NCBI RefSeq assembly: GCF_003072625.1
Contig: NZ_CP027805.1
Span: 1,883,501-1,947,500, forward strand
Reading direction: 5' to 3'
DNA: 64,000 bases
DNA from: Limosilactobacillus reuteri
GTDB taxonomy: Bacteria; Bacillota; Bacilli; Lactobacillales; Lactobacillaceae
Below are positions 8,751 through 44,640 of the stretch, piece by piece. The position numbers and the translations under genes were made by a program. The notes beneath the pieces were generated by a model, which was not told the DNA's origin, searched no databases, and saw only the letters and a program-made list of their open reading frames with translations. Each line of letters begins with the position of its first letter. Positions within the stretch are counted from its first letter, which is position 1.

Positions 8751-8779
8751 TTGACAGCTTTATTATCATTGGTTATACT
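8751..8779 (+). promoter_or_regulatory. Sigma-A promoter of the trp-type ABC transporter operon
   Basis: TTGACA at 8751-8756 and TATACT at 8774-8779 with a 17-base spacer. Transcription should start near 8786, giving a leader of about 255 bases before the first transporter gene. Confidence 0.85.
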
Positions 8780-8812
8780 TAACAACAATTAATTAAGTAG
8801 GGAGTAAGTATA

Positions 8813-8863
8813 ATGAACGTATATCAAACTATCAACGTTAATACTCGTTGGCAAAGCCGGTGA
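8813..8863 (+). CDS. Trp-containing leader peptide, 16 residues
   Basis: ATG at 8813 is preceded by GGGAG at 8800-8804. The peptide MNVYQTINVNTRWQSR ends with TGA at 8861-8863. One Trp codon (TGG 8849-8851) lies four codons before the stop. The last codons overlap the 5' strand of an RNA stem (8855-8860), so ribosome position would control folding. The position, directly after a consensus promoter and before two terminators, fits an attenuation leader peptide; it is too short for ordinary ORF detection. Confidence 0.7.
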   Translation: MNVYQTINVNTRWQSR

Positions 8864-8962
8864 TTCAGGTTGTTTCGTCATGGATGCGACCTGAAGAACA
8901 GATTGCATCTGTGCCGGCTGAGTTTGATGTTCATTTCAGTCCGCATGGATCCACATGCGGAC
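8855..8962 (+). promoter_or_regulatory. Attenuator RNA: three-way junction and alternative pairing
   Basis: AGCCGG (8855-8860) pairs with CCGGCT (8914-8919) and encloses two hairpins: TTCAGGTTG (8864-8872) with CGACCTGAA (8887-8895), and ACAGAT (8898-8903) with ATCTGT (8907-8912). GATGCGAC (8883-8890) can instead pair, with one bulge, with GTCCGCAT (8939-8946), the 5' arm of the first terminator, giving a candidate antiterminator. Ribosome stalling at the Trp codon should change which structure forms. The pairings are read from the sequence; the mechanism is inference. Confidence 0.6.
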
Positions 8963-8970
8963 TTTTATTT
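8939..8970 (+). terminator. Attenuator terminator 1
   Basis: GTCCGCATG and CATGCGGAC form a perfect 9-bp stem with loop GATCCA, followed by TTTTATTTT. Confidence 0.8.
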
Positions 8971-8984
8971 TGCCTTTCAAAAAG

Positions 8985-9016
8985 CGAGGGTCCGTCATGT
9001 GGGCTCTCGTTTTTTA
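8985..9016 (+). terminator. Attenuator terminator 2
   Basis: CGAGGGTCC and GGGCTCTCG form a stem with G-U pairs, followed by TTTTTT. It lies only 25 bases before the first transporter start codon, so it can only serve regulation or insulation. Confidence 0.7.
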
Positions 9017-9040
9017 TTATTTTGTGAGGTGAGATTTTAG

Positions 9041-10036
9041 ATGAAAAGAATGTATAGTTTAATTGCAATTATTATCGCTTTCCTTTGTTTCGCATTCTTT
9101 AGAGAAAATAATGGGTTCGTAACTAAGCAGCGAATTCCAAAAGTTGGTGTATTAACTTTAATGCACCATCCCGCGTTGGATGAAATTTATAAAGGATATG
9201 TTGATGAATTAGCAAAGGAAGGTTACCACAACGGTAAGAACATCAAGATTGAGTATCAAAACGCGAATGGTGACCAAAGTAATCTTAAAACAATGGCTTC
9301 AAAACTCGTTGATGATAACTCAACTGTTCTTTTTGGAATTACGACCCCTGCTGCTCAAGCGTTAGCTAATTCTACTACCAAAACACCAATTGTCCTTGGT
9401 GCTGTTACCGATCCAAAAGCAGCTGGATTAGTTAAAAATAATCAGCATCCTGGTGGCAATATTACTGGAGTATCTGACCAAGCACCAATTCGCGAACAAC
9501 TCAATTTGATCAAGCAATTCATGCCGCGAATGAAAACACTGGGAGTCATCTACACTTCAAGTGATGCTTCAGCAGTAGCCGGTTACCACCAAATCAAACG
9601 TGAATGTCGCAAGATGAATATTAATTTGAAGGCCTATTCAATTGCTAACAGTAACGATCTAAATCAGGTTTCCGAGCAAATGCTTAGCCAAGTCGACGCA
9701 GTAATTGTACCAACAGATAATACAATCGCTGGAGCAATGCAAACCTTAGTTAAGAATGCCGATGCCGCTAATAAGCCAGTCTTCCCGGCAACTGACACAA
9801 TGGTTAAGCAAGGCGGCGTTGCAACTTACAGTGTTAATCAACGTGCTTTAGGTGTCCAAGGTGCAAAGATGACGGTCGCAATCCTCAAGGGCAAGTCAAA
9901 GCCAGCTGATACCCCGATTGAGTACATGAAGCACGGGACTCCTGTTCTCAACATTAAGCAGGCTCGAAAACTTAATTTACAAATTCCCGCTCAATTTGAA
10001 AAGGATGCAGAAACGAAAGGAGAGGTTTACAAATGA
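9041..10036 (+). CDS. ABC transporter substrate-binding protein (TrpX-like, COG2984 type)
   Basis: A 331-residue exported binding protein with ATG at 9041 and GTGAGGTGAG upstream. It has an N-terminal hydrophobic segment (residues 5-20, including Cys17, a weak lipobox), then a two-lobed periplasmic-binding fold: VGVLTLMHHPALDEIYKGY, VLFGITTPAAQAL, GAVTDPKAAGLV and VIVPTDNTIAGAM. These match the family that includes streptococcal TrpX and predicted Trp/Tyr transport binding proteins. It overlaps the permease gene by 4 bp (ATGA), so it is translationally coupled. The Trp codon in the leader peptide supports tryptophan as the ligand; this remains inference. Confidence 0.85.
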   Translation: MKRMYSLIAIIIAFLCFAFFRENNGFVTKQRIPKVGVLTLMHHPALDEIYKGYVDELAKEGYHNGKNIKIEYQNANGDQSNLKTMASKLVDDNSTVLFGITTPAAQALANSTTKTPIVLGAVTDPKAAGLVKNNQHPGGNITGVSDQAPIREQLNLIKQFMPRMKTLGVIYTSSDASAVAGYHQIKRECRKMNINLKAYSIANSNDLNQVSEQMLSQVDAVIVPTDNTIAGAMQTLVKNADAANKPVFPATDTMVKQGGVATYSVNQRALGVQGAKMTVAILKGKSKPADTPIEYMKHGTPVLNIKQARKLNLQIPAQFEKDAETKGEVYK

Positions 10037-10932
10037 ATCTAATTGTATCATCAATCGGTCAAGAACTATTATGGGCTTTACTTGGTCTTGGTCTTTACCT
10101 AACCTTTAGAATTCTTGATTTTGCTGACATGACTGTTGAAGGAACGTTCCCTCTTGGTGCCGCCAGTGCTGTTGCTGCAATCACACATGGTATCAATCCT
10201 TTTCTGGCAACTCTAATTGCGATTGGTGCTGGAATGCTCGCTGGTTTGATCACTGGATTGCTCTACACTAAAGGAAAAATTCCAAGTTTGTTAGCCGGAA
10301 TTCTAACTATGACCGCCGCCTACTCCGTTAACCTCCGCATTATGGGTAAATCAAACGTTTCATTGCTTGGCCAAAAGACCCTCTTTAGTGGTGAATTCAT
10401 GCGAAGTTTACCCCAATACTTTGATAGTGTCTTCTTGGGAGTAGTTACGATTGCAATTATTACTGTAATCCTGATCTTCTTCCTTTCAACTGACTATGGA
10501 CAGGCTTTTATCGCAACTGGTGATAATCCGGTGATGGCAAAATCATTTGGGATTCATACCGACACAATGGTCATCATCGGCCTAATGGTGTCAAACGGAA
10601 TCGTTGGCCTTTGCGGTGCTTTGATTGCTCAAAATAATGGGTATGCTGATATTAATATGGGAATTGGAACGATTGTTATCGCCCTTGCCTCAATCATTAT
10701 TGGTGAAGTAGCCTTTGGTGAATTAACGCTTAACCAGCGACTTGTCGCCGTTACTCTTGGTAGTATCATTTACCGAATTATCTTACTTGCTGTGCTACAA
10801 CTTGGCTTCTCCGCCAATGACCTCAACCTTATCTCCTCAGTTGTCCTTGCAATCTGCATGATGTTGCCACAACTTGAAGAACGCATTCACCTTAAAAAGC
10901 CAATTTTGAAGGGAGTCCGGCCTCATGAATAA
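10033..10932 (+). CDS. ABC transporter permease (TrpY-like)
   Basis: A 299-residue integral membrane protein with about eight or nine hydrophobic segments, of the permease family allied to branched-chain amino acid importers. Sequences such as RILDFADMTVEGTFPLGAA and ATGDNPVMAKSFGI, the latter in a cytoplasmic loop that would contact the ATPase, are typical. It begins with ATG at 10033 overlapping the stop of the binding-protein gene and ends overlapping the ATPase gene by 8 bp. It forms the membrane channel of the probable tryptophan importer. Confidence 0.85.
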   Translation: MNLIVSSIGQELLWALLGLGLYLTFRILDFADMTVEGTFPLGAASAVAAITHGINPFLATLIAIGAGMLAGLITGLLYTKGKIPSLLAGILTMTAAYSVNLRIMGKSNVSLLGQKTLFSGEFMRSLPQYFDSVFLGVVTIAIITVILIFFLSTDYGQAFIATGDNPVMAKSFGIHTDTMVIIGLMVSNGIVGLCGALIAQNNGYADINMGIGTIVIALASIIIGEVAFGELTLNQRLVAVTLGSIIYRIILLAVLQLGFSANDLNLISSVVLAICMMLPQLEERIHLKKPILKGVRPHE

Positions 10933-11689
10933 ACCTATTTTAGAATTACAAGGCGTCAAAACCATTGTTAATAAGGGCACATCGAGTGAAACAACTATTC
11001 TTAAGGGCTTAAACCTTAAAATTAATGAGGGAGACTTCATTACGATCGTTGGAACGAATGGTGCTGGTAAATCGACCCTTTTTAATGTCATCGGCGGAAA
11101 CCTACACGCTGACGAAGGAAAAATTTTGCACAATGGACAAGATATTACCAATACGACAGAAGAACAGCGAACGGCCTTCCTATCCCGTGTTTTTCAGGAT
11201 CCAAAACTAGGGACGGCTGCGCGAATGACAGTTGCTGAAAATATGCTATTAGCAACTAAACGTGGTGAACGTCGCCATCTTATTCCACGGAAGCTCAAAA
11301 GTAATATGGACCGTTTCACCAAGCTAGCTGCAACAATGAATAACGGTCTTGAGAATCGCATGAATACAGCTACTGGAGCCCTTTCCGGGGGACAACGGCA
11401 AGCATTAAGCTTTTTGATGGCAACAATCAAACGACCTGACATTATTTTGCTAGATGAACACACTGCTGCTCTTGACCCGCATACAAGTCTAAATTTATTA
11501 CACGCTACTAATGAACGGATCACTAAAGATCATTTAACTGCCTTAATGATTACCCATAACCTTGAAGATGCCTTAGAGTATGGAAATCGTCTAATCGTGC
11601 TTAAAGATGGTGAAATCAAAGCAGATTTTAATGCAGAGCAACGAAAATTTCTTACCCCTGAGAAACTTTATACTTATTTTGAAGGATAG
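10925..11689 (+). CDS. ABC transporter ATP-binding protein (TrpZ-like)
   Basis: A 254-residue ATPase with Walker A GTNGAGKST (about residues 43-51), Q-loop FQDPKLG, signature LSGGQRQ, Walker B IILLDEHTAALDP and switch histidine in MITHN. The order and spacing are those of a complete ABC nucleotide-binding domain. It is the last gene of the three-gene operon and overlaps the permease. No terminator follows before the next promoter, which starts only two bases after the stop codon, so some read-through into cadD is possible. Confidence 0.88.
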   Translation: MNKPILELQGVKTIVNKGTSSETTILKGLNLKINEGDFITIVGTNGAGKSTLFNVIGGNLHADEGKILHNGQDITNTTEEQRTAFLSRVFQDPKLGTAARMTVAENMLLATKRGERRHLIPRKLKSNMDRFTKLAATMNNGLENRMNTATGALSGGQRQALSFLMATIKRPDIILLDEHTAALDPHTSLNLLHATNERITKDHLTALMITHNLEDALEYGNRLIVLKDGEIKADFNAEQRKFLTPEKLYTYFEG

Positions 11690-11754: not shown

Positions 11755-12318
11755 ATGAATTGGTGGATTATTTTTATCACATTTCTTGCTGTAAACCTCG
11801 ATTTCTTTTTCATCTTAATCTTTTTACTCGAAAAGTATAACCTTCGTGATGTAATCATTGGATATCTCGGCGCCCTTCTTGTTCTGGTTACCATCAGCTT
11901 TTTACTAGGAAAAACACTCGCCATTTTCCTCCCAGAATGGATTTTAGGAATACTGGGGAGCCTGCCTATTTACATGGCTCTCCATGACAACGATGAAGCC
12001 CCAACCCATACCAAAAAACACGGCCCAATTATTACTACATTAATAACTTATCTAGCAGTTTGCACTGGTTGCAACCTCTCAATTTTCTTACCAATTTTAA
12101 CGAATCTTACCTTCCAACAATTTACTCAGTCACTTCTTTTTATCGCAGTCCTTTCAATTGCGATTGTGATTCTCATTAAGGGAATTGGTAATATTCCACT
12201 AATTAAGCAAGCAATGCAACATTATAGCGAAATCTTAATGAAGGTTATCTATATCGGTGTTGGTTGTTATGTTTTTTGGGACAGTGGATTAATTACCCAC
12301 CTTATTCACCTTCTTTAG
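11755..12318 (+). CDS. cadD: CadD-family cadmium resistance/transport protein
   Basis: A 187-residue membrane protein with ATG at 11755 and AGGAG at 11742-11746. It has about five or six hydrophobic segments: an N-terminal pair with VNLDFFFILIFLL, a central hydrophilic loop (DNDEAPTHTKKHG, with His and acidic residues) and LAVCTGCNLSIFLPI, with two Cys in a helix. The length and pattern match the CadD family (cadmium resistance transporters related to LysE-type exporters). Co-location with an ArsR repressor and its operator supports metal-induced efflux of cadmium or zinc. The exact ion is inferred, not shown. Confidence 0.8.
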   Translation: MNWWIIFITFLAVNLDFFFILIFLLEKYNLRDVIIGYLGALLVLVTISFLLGKTLAIFLPEWILGILGSLPIYMALHDNDEAPTHTKKHGPIITTLITYLAVCTGCNLSIFLPILTNLTFQQFTQSLLFIAVLSIAIVILIKGIGNIPLIKQAMQHYSEILMKVIYIGVGCYVFWDSGLITHLIHLL

Positions 12319-12365
12319 TTTGGTATAATAATTACTAAACCGATTAAAAGGAGGAGCAGCAACCA

Positions 12366-12695
12366 TTGTCTTCTATACAAGTCTTTATTGATGAAGCTGC
12401 TAAAATCTATAAAGTCCTAAGCAATAGTACGCGTTTAAACATCTTATATTATCTTCGGCACTATGACGGTGAGGCTGATGTTAAAACAATCGTTAATGAT
12501 CTTCATCTTGCGCAACCGATCGTCTCAAAACAGCTCGGTATTTTATATCGCTACCAGTTAGTCAGTCGCCATAAAGAAGGGACACGCGTTTACTATGCTT
12601 TAGATGATCCTCATGTTATTGAAATGATTGATGACATGCCAAAACACGTTAAACACGAAATAAAGGGGCGAGCCACATCCTCGAAATTTGTATAA
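12366..12695 (+). CDS. ArsR/SmtB-family metal-sensing repressor (CzrA-like alpha-5 site)
   Basis: A 109-residue winged-helix repressor starting with TTG at 12366 after AAGGAGGAG. Residues about 18-75 form the HTH (STRLNILYYL, QPIVSKQLGILYRYQLV). It lacks the N-terminal Cys metal site of CadC. The C-terminal helix carries Asp81, His83, His94 and His97, the DxH-(10)-HxxH spacing of the zinc/cobalt alpha-5 site of CzrA and SmtB. The sensor should therefore respond to Zn or Co, perhaps Cd, and release the palindrome at 11695-11743. It follows cadD by 47 bases, with a short TTTAGT/ACTAAA repeat and a TATAAT-like sequence between. Confidence 0.85.
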   Translation: MSSIQVFIDEAAKIYKVLSNSTRLNILYYLRHYDGEADVKTIVNDLHLAQPIVSKQLGILYRYQLVSRHKEGTRVYYALDDPHVIEMIDDMPKHVKHEIKGRATSSKFV

Positions 12696-43094: not shown

Positions 43095-44480
43095 TCATTA
43101 ATAAATTCATGATAGCGTGGTTCTACAATCACTTCTAACAGTTTATTTAGCCAATAAGCACTCTTATCCGGCTGGGTATCATCGGTTGCATACTTATATT
43201 TTGCCGGAGTATCACTAATATTTGTAAAGAACGGAACGTAAGGGCTATAGCAATAAAAGCCAAAATTAATCCATTGAATAGCAGCATATTGTGCTGGGAC
43301 GTCATTCCGAATTTGCAAAATACATGAACTTTGATTACGATCAAGTGCAATTGAACGGAATTTTCGCTGTTCCTCTGGTGTTCCAGAAGCATAAGTTCCC
43401 GTTGGATCATAAGGGGTACCGTTATAATGCGATGAGAGGAAGTACTCTACATCCTCAACGGCAATTTTCTTTTCTGCACGTTGAATAAATGGAATTTTTT
43501 GGCTGGTAGGCTCCTGTTTTAAGGATGGAGTAAAGAGCTTTTGACCATACCAGGAACGAGGGGTGTTGTAGTAGGCATCTGCCTCATCTTGTGTACCAAA
43601 AATATTCCGGAAATTAAATGTTTGTGGATCAGGATTTAAATGATATTTTTCAACAAAATCTTTAATTTGCGGCGCATACATGAAGCTATCGTGATCGTTA
43701 AAGTCGACCTCTTCGATACACATAATATTTGGTGCAATTGCATAAGCATCATCAGGAATCCGCTGGGCAACCCATTGATGACCTCCACCGGTCTCAAAAT
43801 ACCAAACTTCATCCTTATCGCTAAAGGCAATCCCATTGCTTTCACCAGTACCGTACTTTTCAATTAATGATCCAAGCCGTTGAACACCTTCACGGGCAGA
43901 CTTAATAATGGTAGGACAAGATAAACCATTGAGTCTTCATTAATTCCGTTTTCTACTAACGGATCATGACCAAGCACCCTGGCATTTGTCATTTCGGTTT
44001 CTGTCGCACTCATTGCAACATTATATTCATTAATGCCTTGCTCATCCCAGCGTCCTTCATCAAGCACGCCATTGGGAGTTGCCGTATAACGGCATCCCTG
44101 TCCCTTCATCTCAACAGTTAACCCATTATATTTTGAAACATAATGTTCACCGGTGTAATCCTTGGCTGGAAATACTTTGAAAGTCTTGGGATTGACTCCA
44201 TCTTCAGCATCTTCATCACGTGCAATAATTGTTGAGCCATCAATCGTAGCATTCTTTCCAACAAGCATTGCCGTACAACTACTCATTAGCTTTTGCATAA
44301 TATACGCTTCCTTCCACAGTAGTTACTGTACTTTCTAATAATACCACTATCTGGAATTAACCGGATCATAAGAAAAAAGCTGAACGTTAGTAATACAAAT
44401 CAATCTAAAACATCATTAATACCGAACAAAGCATTGAAAATGTTCGGTATTAGTGCTAGGATAACTACATTAAATAAATA

Positions 44481-44640
44481 GCCTATATAATACCGAAATA
44501 TGGTCGGTTAGTCTCTACCTAAAGCCGTAAACTTTAGACTATAAGCGCTTCTTAAAAACTGACACTGTCTGTTTTTAACTTCAAGCTTTTAAGAATCGGT
44601 AGAGAGGCTGAATTTTTTCAGTCTCTTATTTTTATTTAGG
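44481..44640 (+). promoter_or_regulatory. Purine (guanine/xanthine-type) riboswitch with terminator
   Basis: The aptamer spans about 44481-44546. Conserved parts are TATAATACCG, AATATGG, GTCTCTACC, CCGTAAA and GACTATAAGC, in the right order for the purine class. The specificity base in GACTA is C, which indicates guanine or xanthine rather than adenine. A terminator follows: AGAGAGGCTGAA (44601-44612) with TTCAGTCTCT (44618-44627) and a T-rich tail. CTCTACC in the aptamer can pair with GGTAGAG at 44598, the terminator's 5' arm, giving the alternative fold. Confidence 0.88.

Follow-up and report, generated by a model that had tools for sequence, protein, structure and literature searches.

A predicted tryptophan leader-peptide attenuator upstream of trpXYZ in Limosilactobacillus reuteri, homologous to the RNA family RF04312

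We analyzed a stretch of 64,000 nucleotides (the window; position 1 is its first letter) from a Limosilactobacillus reuteri genome of 2.04 Mb in a single contig. An earlier note on this DNA had described a TrpXYZ-like ABC transporter operon, and the family searches agree: the operon starts at 9041, and its first product, 97% identical to TrpX of Limosilactobacillus caviae, exceeds the equivalog cut-off.

9041..10036, + strand: trpX, tryptophan ABC transporter substrate-binding protein (NCBIfam equivalog NF041285, 469.2 bits, cut-off 390; PF04392)
10033..10932, + strand: trpY, permease (PF02653), named from its position after trpX
10925..11689, + strand: trpZ, ATPase (PF00005), named from its position after trpX

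Past trpZ, the window carries a cadmium-resistance-type transporter and an ArsR-family regulator (11755-12695). The sole Rfam match in the window at the curated threshold is a purine riboswitch at 44463-44561 (70.9 bits).

The region preceding trpX contains a promoter-like site and a short open reading frame (ORF) with a Shine-Dalgarno (SD) sequence:

8751..8779, + strand: predicted sigma-70-type promoter, TTGACA-17-TATACT (consensus match alone, 11 of 12 positions)
8799..8807, + strand: SD region of the leader ORF, AGGGAGTAA, with the SD AGGGAG
8813..8863, + strand: leader ORF, MNVYQTINVNTRWQSR and a stop, 16 codons, ending RWQSR-stop; SD-preceded, and the same kind of ORF stands before TrpX relatives
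8849..8851, + strand: single Trp codon (putative sensor); Tyr/Phe, His or Leu codons occupy this position before other genes

It should be noted that the promoter scan, taken overall, returned 4 sites versus 3.4 expected by shuffling. The Trp codon is the only one of the leader ORF and lies four codons ahead of its stop. The minimum free energy of the leader RNA is unusually low (z = -8.1), with 0 of 200 shuffled sequences reaching such a value; the predicted fold is a three-way junction, the outer stem of which begins within the Ser-Arg codons, and two terminators follow, at 8938-8963 and 8979-9015 (2 found versus 0.6 expected). The promoter, leader ORF, fold and tandem terminators of the earlier note were all recovered.

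The same note had proposed a comparison with Rfam, and a search by E-value revealed homology to the family RF04312 (trpB motif), below its gathering score; the proteobacterial Trp and His leader families gave no match in this search of the window leader.

8877..8972, + strand: stretch matching RF04312 (48.4 bits, E = 6.6e-6, gathering score 59)

The alignment runs end to end (model positions 1-107), with the P1 hairpin and the terminator hairpin in the consensus layout, and begins 3' of the leader stop codon. The closest relatives of the window copy are likewise under the gathering score (53.7 and 52.1 bits), whereas further copies in the genus exceed it (60.1, 60.2, 62.9 and 71.3 bits). A search limited to the gathering threshold would not have revealed the homology found by E-value. 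The same genome has another copy, at 86.6 bits, with its own leader (MSYQTLQLNHSWQSR and a stop). That copy (L166, G000:C1:26700-34700) is followed by a reverse transcriptase ORF, presumably of the group II intron type, and then by a broken trpX paralogue in two pieces; another reverse-transcriptase-like ORF was seen by eye 3' of the attenuator terminator at L152.

RF04312 was introduced in 2024 as one of the strong riboswitch candidates, and its >900 representatives come from Firmicutes and Fusobacteria (PMC11109978). Its authors reported a terminator, with an antiterminator in the right side of P1, and stated that a classic attenuator remains possible; the accessible part of their account of the family describes no uORF or other ORF (PMC11109978).

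We sampled the family at several taxonomic levels. At the family level, matches were obtained in 188 of 201 genomes at the loose limit of E <= 1, at which 4 of 14 control genomes matched too, and 7 of the 201 passed the cut-off; 77 of the 85 matches with E < 0.001 were examined, the remaining 8 and weaker matches being left out. At E <= 1e-4, the class yielded 13 genomes with matches out of 299 and the phylum 3 out of 398, and an order of another class had matches in 29 of 147 genomes at E <= 0.001, none of them above the cut-off. All 16 matches at the class level, those at the phylum level and all 44 of the other-class order were examined; searches around two further genomes (G278, 1 of 5 genomes; G258, 1 of 1) gave no additional match.

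A short ORF ends just 5' of RF04312 in 129 of the 133 distinct matches examined. Automatic detection found it in 124 of 133, one of which (L161) was judged spurious, and six more were read by eye (L051, L055, L112, L117, L123 with a weak SD, and L138, where the model was misplaced). The four matches that have no leader (L142, L161, L164 and L165) score approximately 38-40 bits and were taken as chance matches to the model. The last codons of the 129 leaders fall into several types, and the genes behind them were identified by tblastn comparison of the DNA 3' of the motif, with which family searches of representative downstream genes agree:

Trp leaders (WQSR/WQxWR-like), 75: trpX 61, trpB 6, peptide-binding protein 1, no assignment 7 (three of them resembling peptide-binding proteins)
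His leaders (HHH(H)), 10: hisS 8, hisZ 2
Leu leaders (LLLLANLR-like), 7: one SNF transporter subgroup in 7 of 7
Phe/Tyr leaders (FF/YY-rich), 29: an SNF subgroup distinct from the Leu type 17, TrpX-like 6, branched-chain-type transporters 2, transketolase 2, permease 1, no assignment 1
VVF leaders, 4: permease in all 4
Other leaders, 4: SNF 3, family-3 binding protein 1

The TrpX-like proteins behind Tyr/Phe leaders were under the TrpX equivalog cut-off of 390 in all three cases tested (384, 342 and 250 bits), the 384-bit one barely so and the other two being incomplete sequences; the one TrpX tested behind a Trp leader passed at 467 bits. The codons thus differ from gene to gene on an unchanged RNA architecture, which a single aptamer would not explain and codon sensing does. 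By comparison with the other leader types, the Trp codon is the predicted sensor. A distinct lactobacillal class, as suggested in the earlier note, is too narrow a description, since the RNA groups with RF04312 and versions of it for His, Phe/Tyr and Leu are present in further families of the class and in another class of the phylum.

We also assembled a second sample by protein similarity alone, the best 80 of 551 confirmed TrpX loci; it should be noted that the titles of these loci are nearly all Lactobacillaceae and that the sample overlaps in kind with that of RF04312. For the leader counts at these loci, and for the folding of 70 leaders and the peptide-motif count described below, the SD pattern was widened by AAGTTGG. 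A Trp leader was present at 75 of these best 80 loci: 74 SD-preceded ORFs with WQ near the end, and one WWRF. When a slightly wider upstream stretch was searched, WQ leaders appeared at 75 of 80; the controls gave 3 of 80 for the opposite strand and 24 of 1600 for shuffled sequences. RF04312 itself was detectable at E <= 0.05 in 31 of 80. The WQ leaders have one Trp in 62 of 74 and two in 12 of 74; in 56 of 74, Trp occupies the position four codons ahead of the stop. Five of the 80 loci have no Trp leader. By eye, trpX seems to lie directly behind another gene in two of these (L221 and L222) and does not in the other three (L187, L191 and L223), which count against the model. One locus (L179), on a contig bearing the title Faecalicatena absiana, combines a lactobacillus-like trpX with a WWQFR leader; the assembly may be mixed or mislabelled.

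To describe the RNA, we denote the following segments:

8855..8861, + strand: segment 1 (Ser-Arg codons and the first stop base), pairing with 8913-8919 in ribosome-free RNA (helix 1:3)
8864..8873, + strand: segment A, pairing with 8886-8895 of B
8879..8895, + strand: segment B, of which 8886-8895 pairs with A and 8879-8889 with 8903-8913 of C
8903..8919, + strand: segment C, with the antiterminator part 8907-8919 pairing with D
8920..8937, + strand: C-D linker, with complementarity, judged by pairing energies, to the region around the start codon of the leader (helix 0:L)
8938..8963, + strand: terminator T1, D (8938-8950) and E (8952-8963), by D:E pairing
8979..9015, + strand: terminator T2, F (8989-9001) and G; if T1 cannot form, F is predicted to pair with E

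Covariation was assessed in an alignment of 70 Trp-type leaders selected by the DNA pattern TGGCA[AG], in which TGG is invariant by construction; it was obtained from 75 candidates by removing L037-L039, L064 and L138, and includes the window itself (L075). Five mutually exclusive helices covary, i.e., 1:3, A:B, B:C, C:D and D:E, every one of them with paired cells far above its slid versions, and kinship among the sequences inflates the covariation counts that follow. The B:C helix, which is the first hairpin of RF04312 in the cmscan alignment, has 91.4% of cells paired and 75 doubly changed cells versus 13.2 in shuffles; the corresponding values are 94.3% and 83 versus 18.0 for D:E, 95.7% and 22 versus 3.7 for C:D (8907-8919/8938-8950), and 80.7% and 39 versus 14.9 for A:B. 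Helix 1:3 is 98.4% paired with 27 doubly changed cells versus 5.2, in 3 of 7 pairs; however, two of its five covariation measures are not above shuffles (doubly changed pairs, 3 versus 2.3; further pair types, 9 versus 10.2).

The antiterminator of the earlier note, 8883-8890 with 8939-8946 (B:D), was rejected, and the C:D pairing is supported instead. B:D had 31 doubly changed cells versus 23.7 in shuffles among the 70 relatives, with 82.4% of cells paired versus 80.8% in shuffles and single pairs broken in <=26 of 70. Its paired share is above that of its slid versions and not below that of A:B; thus, the pairing was rejected for want of compensatory changes exceeding those in shuffles. The central proposal, a Trp leader-peptide attenuator preceding TrpXYZ, draws strong support from the conservation at the TrpX loci and from covariation. 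Sequence comparison shows a leader ORF with a cognate codon, together with segments 1 and A to G that can pair in two exclusive registers.

We then predicted folding with the ribosome at defined positions. For RNA up to the end of B, A:B was predicted in 62 of 70 leaders when the ribosome was placed on Trp; when it was placed on the stop codon, this dropped to 1 of 70. With the A site 9 nt beyond the Trp codon, A:B was kept in 22, 0 and 1 of 70 for three footprints; the ability to form A:B disappears 3 to 12 nt beyond the Trp codon, depending on the footprint assumed. The window leader folded up to D gave A:B and C:D (0.70-0.83) with the ribosome masked on the Trp codon, B:C with the ribosome on the stop codon, and 1:3 and A:B when ribosome-free. 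In equilibrium folding of whole leaders up to D, a stall-specific C:D was found in 14 of 70 and the opposite direction in 2; when A:B was held, C:D went up in 21 of 63 and down in 1 of 63, the others showing no clear direction. Since B:C often wins at equilibrium (full switch in 14 of 70), the order of folding during transcription must matter, and the model needs such folding for the window as well, where a complete T1 outcompetes C:D at equilibrium; this folding-order step is an inference. When the window sequence was cut just before the Trp codon, C:D was already present in the free state, unlike in the whole leader, where the C-D linker is taken up by the leader start.

This start-region pairing (helix 0:L) has an energy of -9.2 kcal/mol for own pairs versus a mean of -6.3 across all leader-linker combinations; 32 of 70 are at or under the 5th percentile (median percentile 0.18), hence it applies to only a fraction of the leaders. 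Pairing of AUG or SD with the linker is seen in many leaders of Limosilactobacillus and in some others. Such pairing would close the leader after the decision, and E. coli trpL does something similar.

T2 is present in 66 of 70 sequences, and E, the 3' arm of T1, has complementarity to F, which comprises the left arm and the loop of T2. In 59 distinct pairs, the own E:F pairing was -12.3 kcal/mol, compared to -8.8 with the T2 of other species with differing E (p = 3.4e-7) and -7.5 with shuffled E (p = 8.1e-11), the statistics ignoring kinship. The best partner of E was inside T2 in 50 of 59, versus 0.65 for shuffled E; only 16 of 59 are at or under the 5th percentile when compared to other species, and 36 of 59 when compared to shuffled E. 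The unrestricted test was weaker (own -12.5 versus -9.9; 20 of 70 at or under the 5th percentile). With C:D held in the window, E:F reached 0.99 and T2 was abolished even in the full transcript, whereas with T1 held T2 can form. One way to view the RNA is as a chain A-B-C-D-E-F-G, in which the modelled registers would be A:B, C:D and E:F (on) or B:C, D:E and F:G (off).

These results suggest that the window element is a leader-peptide attenuator homologous to RF04312, and RF04312 as a family is, judging from its leaders, best read as an attenuator of this kind with exchangeable sensing codons. It is very probably a ribosome-mediated transcription attenuator for tryptophan, in which a starved Trp codon is the ON signal. 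With charged tRNA-Trp, the ribosome would reach the stop codon and cover A; B:C would form, D:E would make T1, T2 would form too, and trpXYZ would be off. When Trp-tRNA is scarce, the ribosome would halt on UGG and cover segment 1, leaving A free; A:B, C:D and E:F would form, neither terminator would form, and trpXYZ would be on. If the ribosome is released, or there is no translation, segment 1 would pair with C, the C-D linker would bind the leader start, and the default state would thus be off.

Several alternatives have to be considered. The published view would make RF04312, including the window copy, a metabolite riboswitch with an incidental ORF, and it is consistent with the covarying hairpins, the expression platform and the transporter genes (PMC11109978). 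However, the ORF codons change with the gene under a constant RNA architecture, a single aptamer would need to bind Trp, His, Phe/Tyr and Leu, and the conserved stretches are explained by mutually exclusive pairings; with the authors themselves keeping a classic attenuator possible (PMC11109978), we consider the riboswitch very improbable. On the sequence side, the window RNA has the same two hairpins, similar genes and an antiterminator in the right side of P1, whereas RF04312 was presented without a uORF in the accessible part of the account (PMC11109978) and the window copy scores 48.4 bits, under 59. Control of the trpX gene by a T-box is known in Streptococcus suis (PMC9382623), with the same transporter genes and the same expected signal, uncharged tRNA-Trp; the difference is that the T-box binds tRNA and the window has a translated leader. 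No RF00230 match was found in the window or the leader, and the four matches in the best 80 of 551 TrpX loci are all on the opposite strand. A TRAP leader has about 11 (G/U)AG repeats with a spacing of 2-3 nt, whereas the longest such chain in the window leader is 2. T-box or TRAP control was therefore rejected for this leader, with hardly any probability left to it.

TnaC is a short leader with a single conserved Trp codon, a property shared by the leader described here, and the nascent chain could by analogy sense free tryptophan, high tryptophan stalling the ribosome and turning the genes on. In contrast to this expectation, the downstream genes serve uptake and synthesis, not breakdown; His, Leu and Phe/Tyr codons replace Trp in homologous leaders; and a ribosome on the stop codon is predicted to favor B:C, hence termination. 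We consider TnaC-like sensing very improbable as well. A different role of the nascent chain would add to codon sensing rather than replace it: the motif [QKN][LVI]N-x-x-W in the exit tunnel may sensitize the ribosome, so that one codon is enough. A lone Trp in 62 of 74 TrpX leaders (best 80 of 551 loci) is in line with this, as is the motif itself. Written as [QKN][LVIMF]N and allowed a distance of 0-3 residues from the sensing codons that follow, the motif was found in 93 of 164 distinct leaders versus 14.8 in shuffles (maximum 26), counts that are inflated by the kinship of leaders (6 of 170 distinct peptides, in which no sensing run was recognized, were skipped and L138 was left out). By type, the motif is present in 61 of 119 Trp, 22 of 29 Phe/Tyr, 7 of 7 Leu and 3 of 9 His leaders, the last value not being above chance (shuffles gave 1.1, with a maximum of 4). 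At the hydrophobic position 15 different codons occur, which speaks for the amino acid. Conversely, the strict motif is missing in 71 of 164 leaders, and its Asn is AAT in 85:8 versus 182:88 elsewhere in leaders, hinting at some constraint on bases. Of the two ways of stalling named in the earlier note, by a specific nascent peptide or by one starved codon, the conserved motif makes a contribution of the first possible beside the second, and we regard such help as a tentative addition, less likely than not.

Base constraints were also seen at the sensing codon itself. Gln after Trp is CAA in 119 of 119 cases and Arg before Trp is CGT in 48 of 51; in the 74 WQ leaders of the best 80 of 551 TrpX loci, CAA follows TGG in 74 of 74, versus CAA:CAG of 993:515 in the trpX genes. 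The fixed CAA and near-fixed CGT suggest some base constraint, which codon sensing alone does not explain. A GGC-AAA-GCC hairpin was considered as the reason for the fixed TGGCAA and was rejected, because WQNR and WQFR leaders break its pairing (by eye).

Leader-peptide attenuation is classical: the E. coli trp, his and pheA attenuators have cognate codons in a leader ORF, and the position of the ribosome picks the terminator or antiterminator. The class described here shares the first property and is predicted to share the second. It differs in having mostly one Trp codon (62 of 74, best 80 of 551 loci) instead of tandem codons, and adds the predicted seven-segment chain with two coupled terminators and the 1:3 lock. 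In Firmicutes, His-codon leader ORFs before hisS/hisZ and his operons are in print (PMC2965389, PMC9413887); the His type described here likewise precedes hisS or hisZ. Those cases were reported as separate and local, and the portions considered draw no link to RF04312 or to versions for Trp, Phe/Tyr and Leu. In the literature searched, mostly papers outside subscription and without supplements, nothing ties RF04312 to leader peptides, and no Trp leader peptide is described before lactobacillal trpXYZ.

The attenuator reading would give a concrete function to an orphan RNA family of >900 members and redirect the search for a ligand to a translation assay. It also suggests a route by which lactobacilli sense tryptophan. 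The leader codons may predict the substrates of uncharacterized transporters, for TrpX-like proteins with Tyr/Phe leaders and for SNF transporters preceded by leaders of the Phe, Tyr or Leu kind. How one codon can give tight operon control is a question posed anew by the relay between the two terminators and by the peptide motif. One answer, which we offer as a conjecture that is more probably wrong than right, is a widespread Firmicute class in which the conserved nascent peptide [QKN][LVI]N-x-x-sensor lets one starved codon halt the ribosome, and the halt is passed along the seven-segment RNA, opening two serial terminators.

Some leaders were found before unexpected genes. A YYWFS leader precedes a transketolase gene (L126 and L128), an unexpected target for aromatic amino-acid sensing. 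Trp leaders also precede peptide-binding proteins, at L032 (by Pfam) and at L134, L139 and L144 (by eye), which suggests that peptide uptake may be Trp-controlled there. At L162, a case that counts against the model, the Trp codon of the attenuator has turned into Leu (the leader ends in IRLRSQ and a stop), ahead of a family-3 solute-binding protein.
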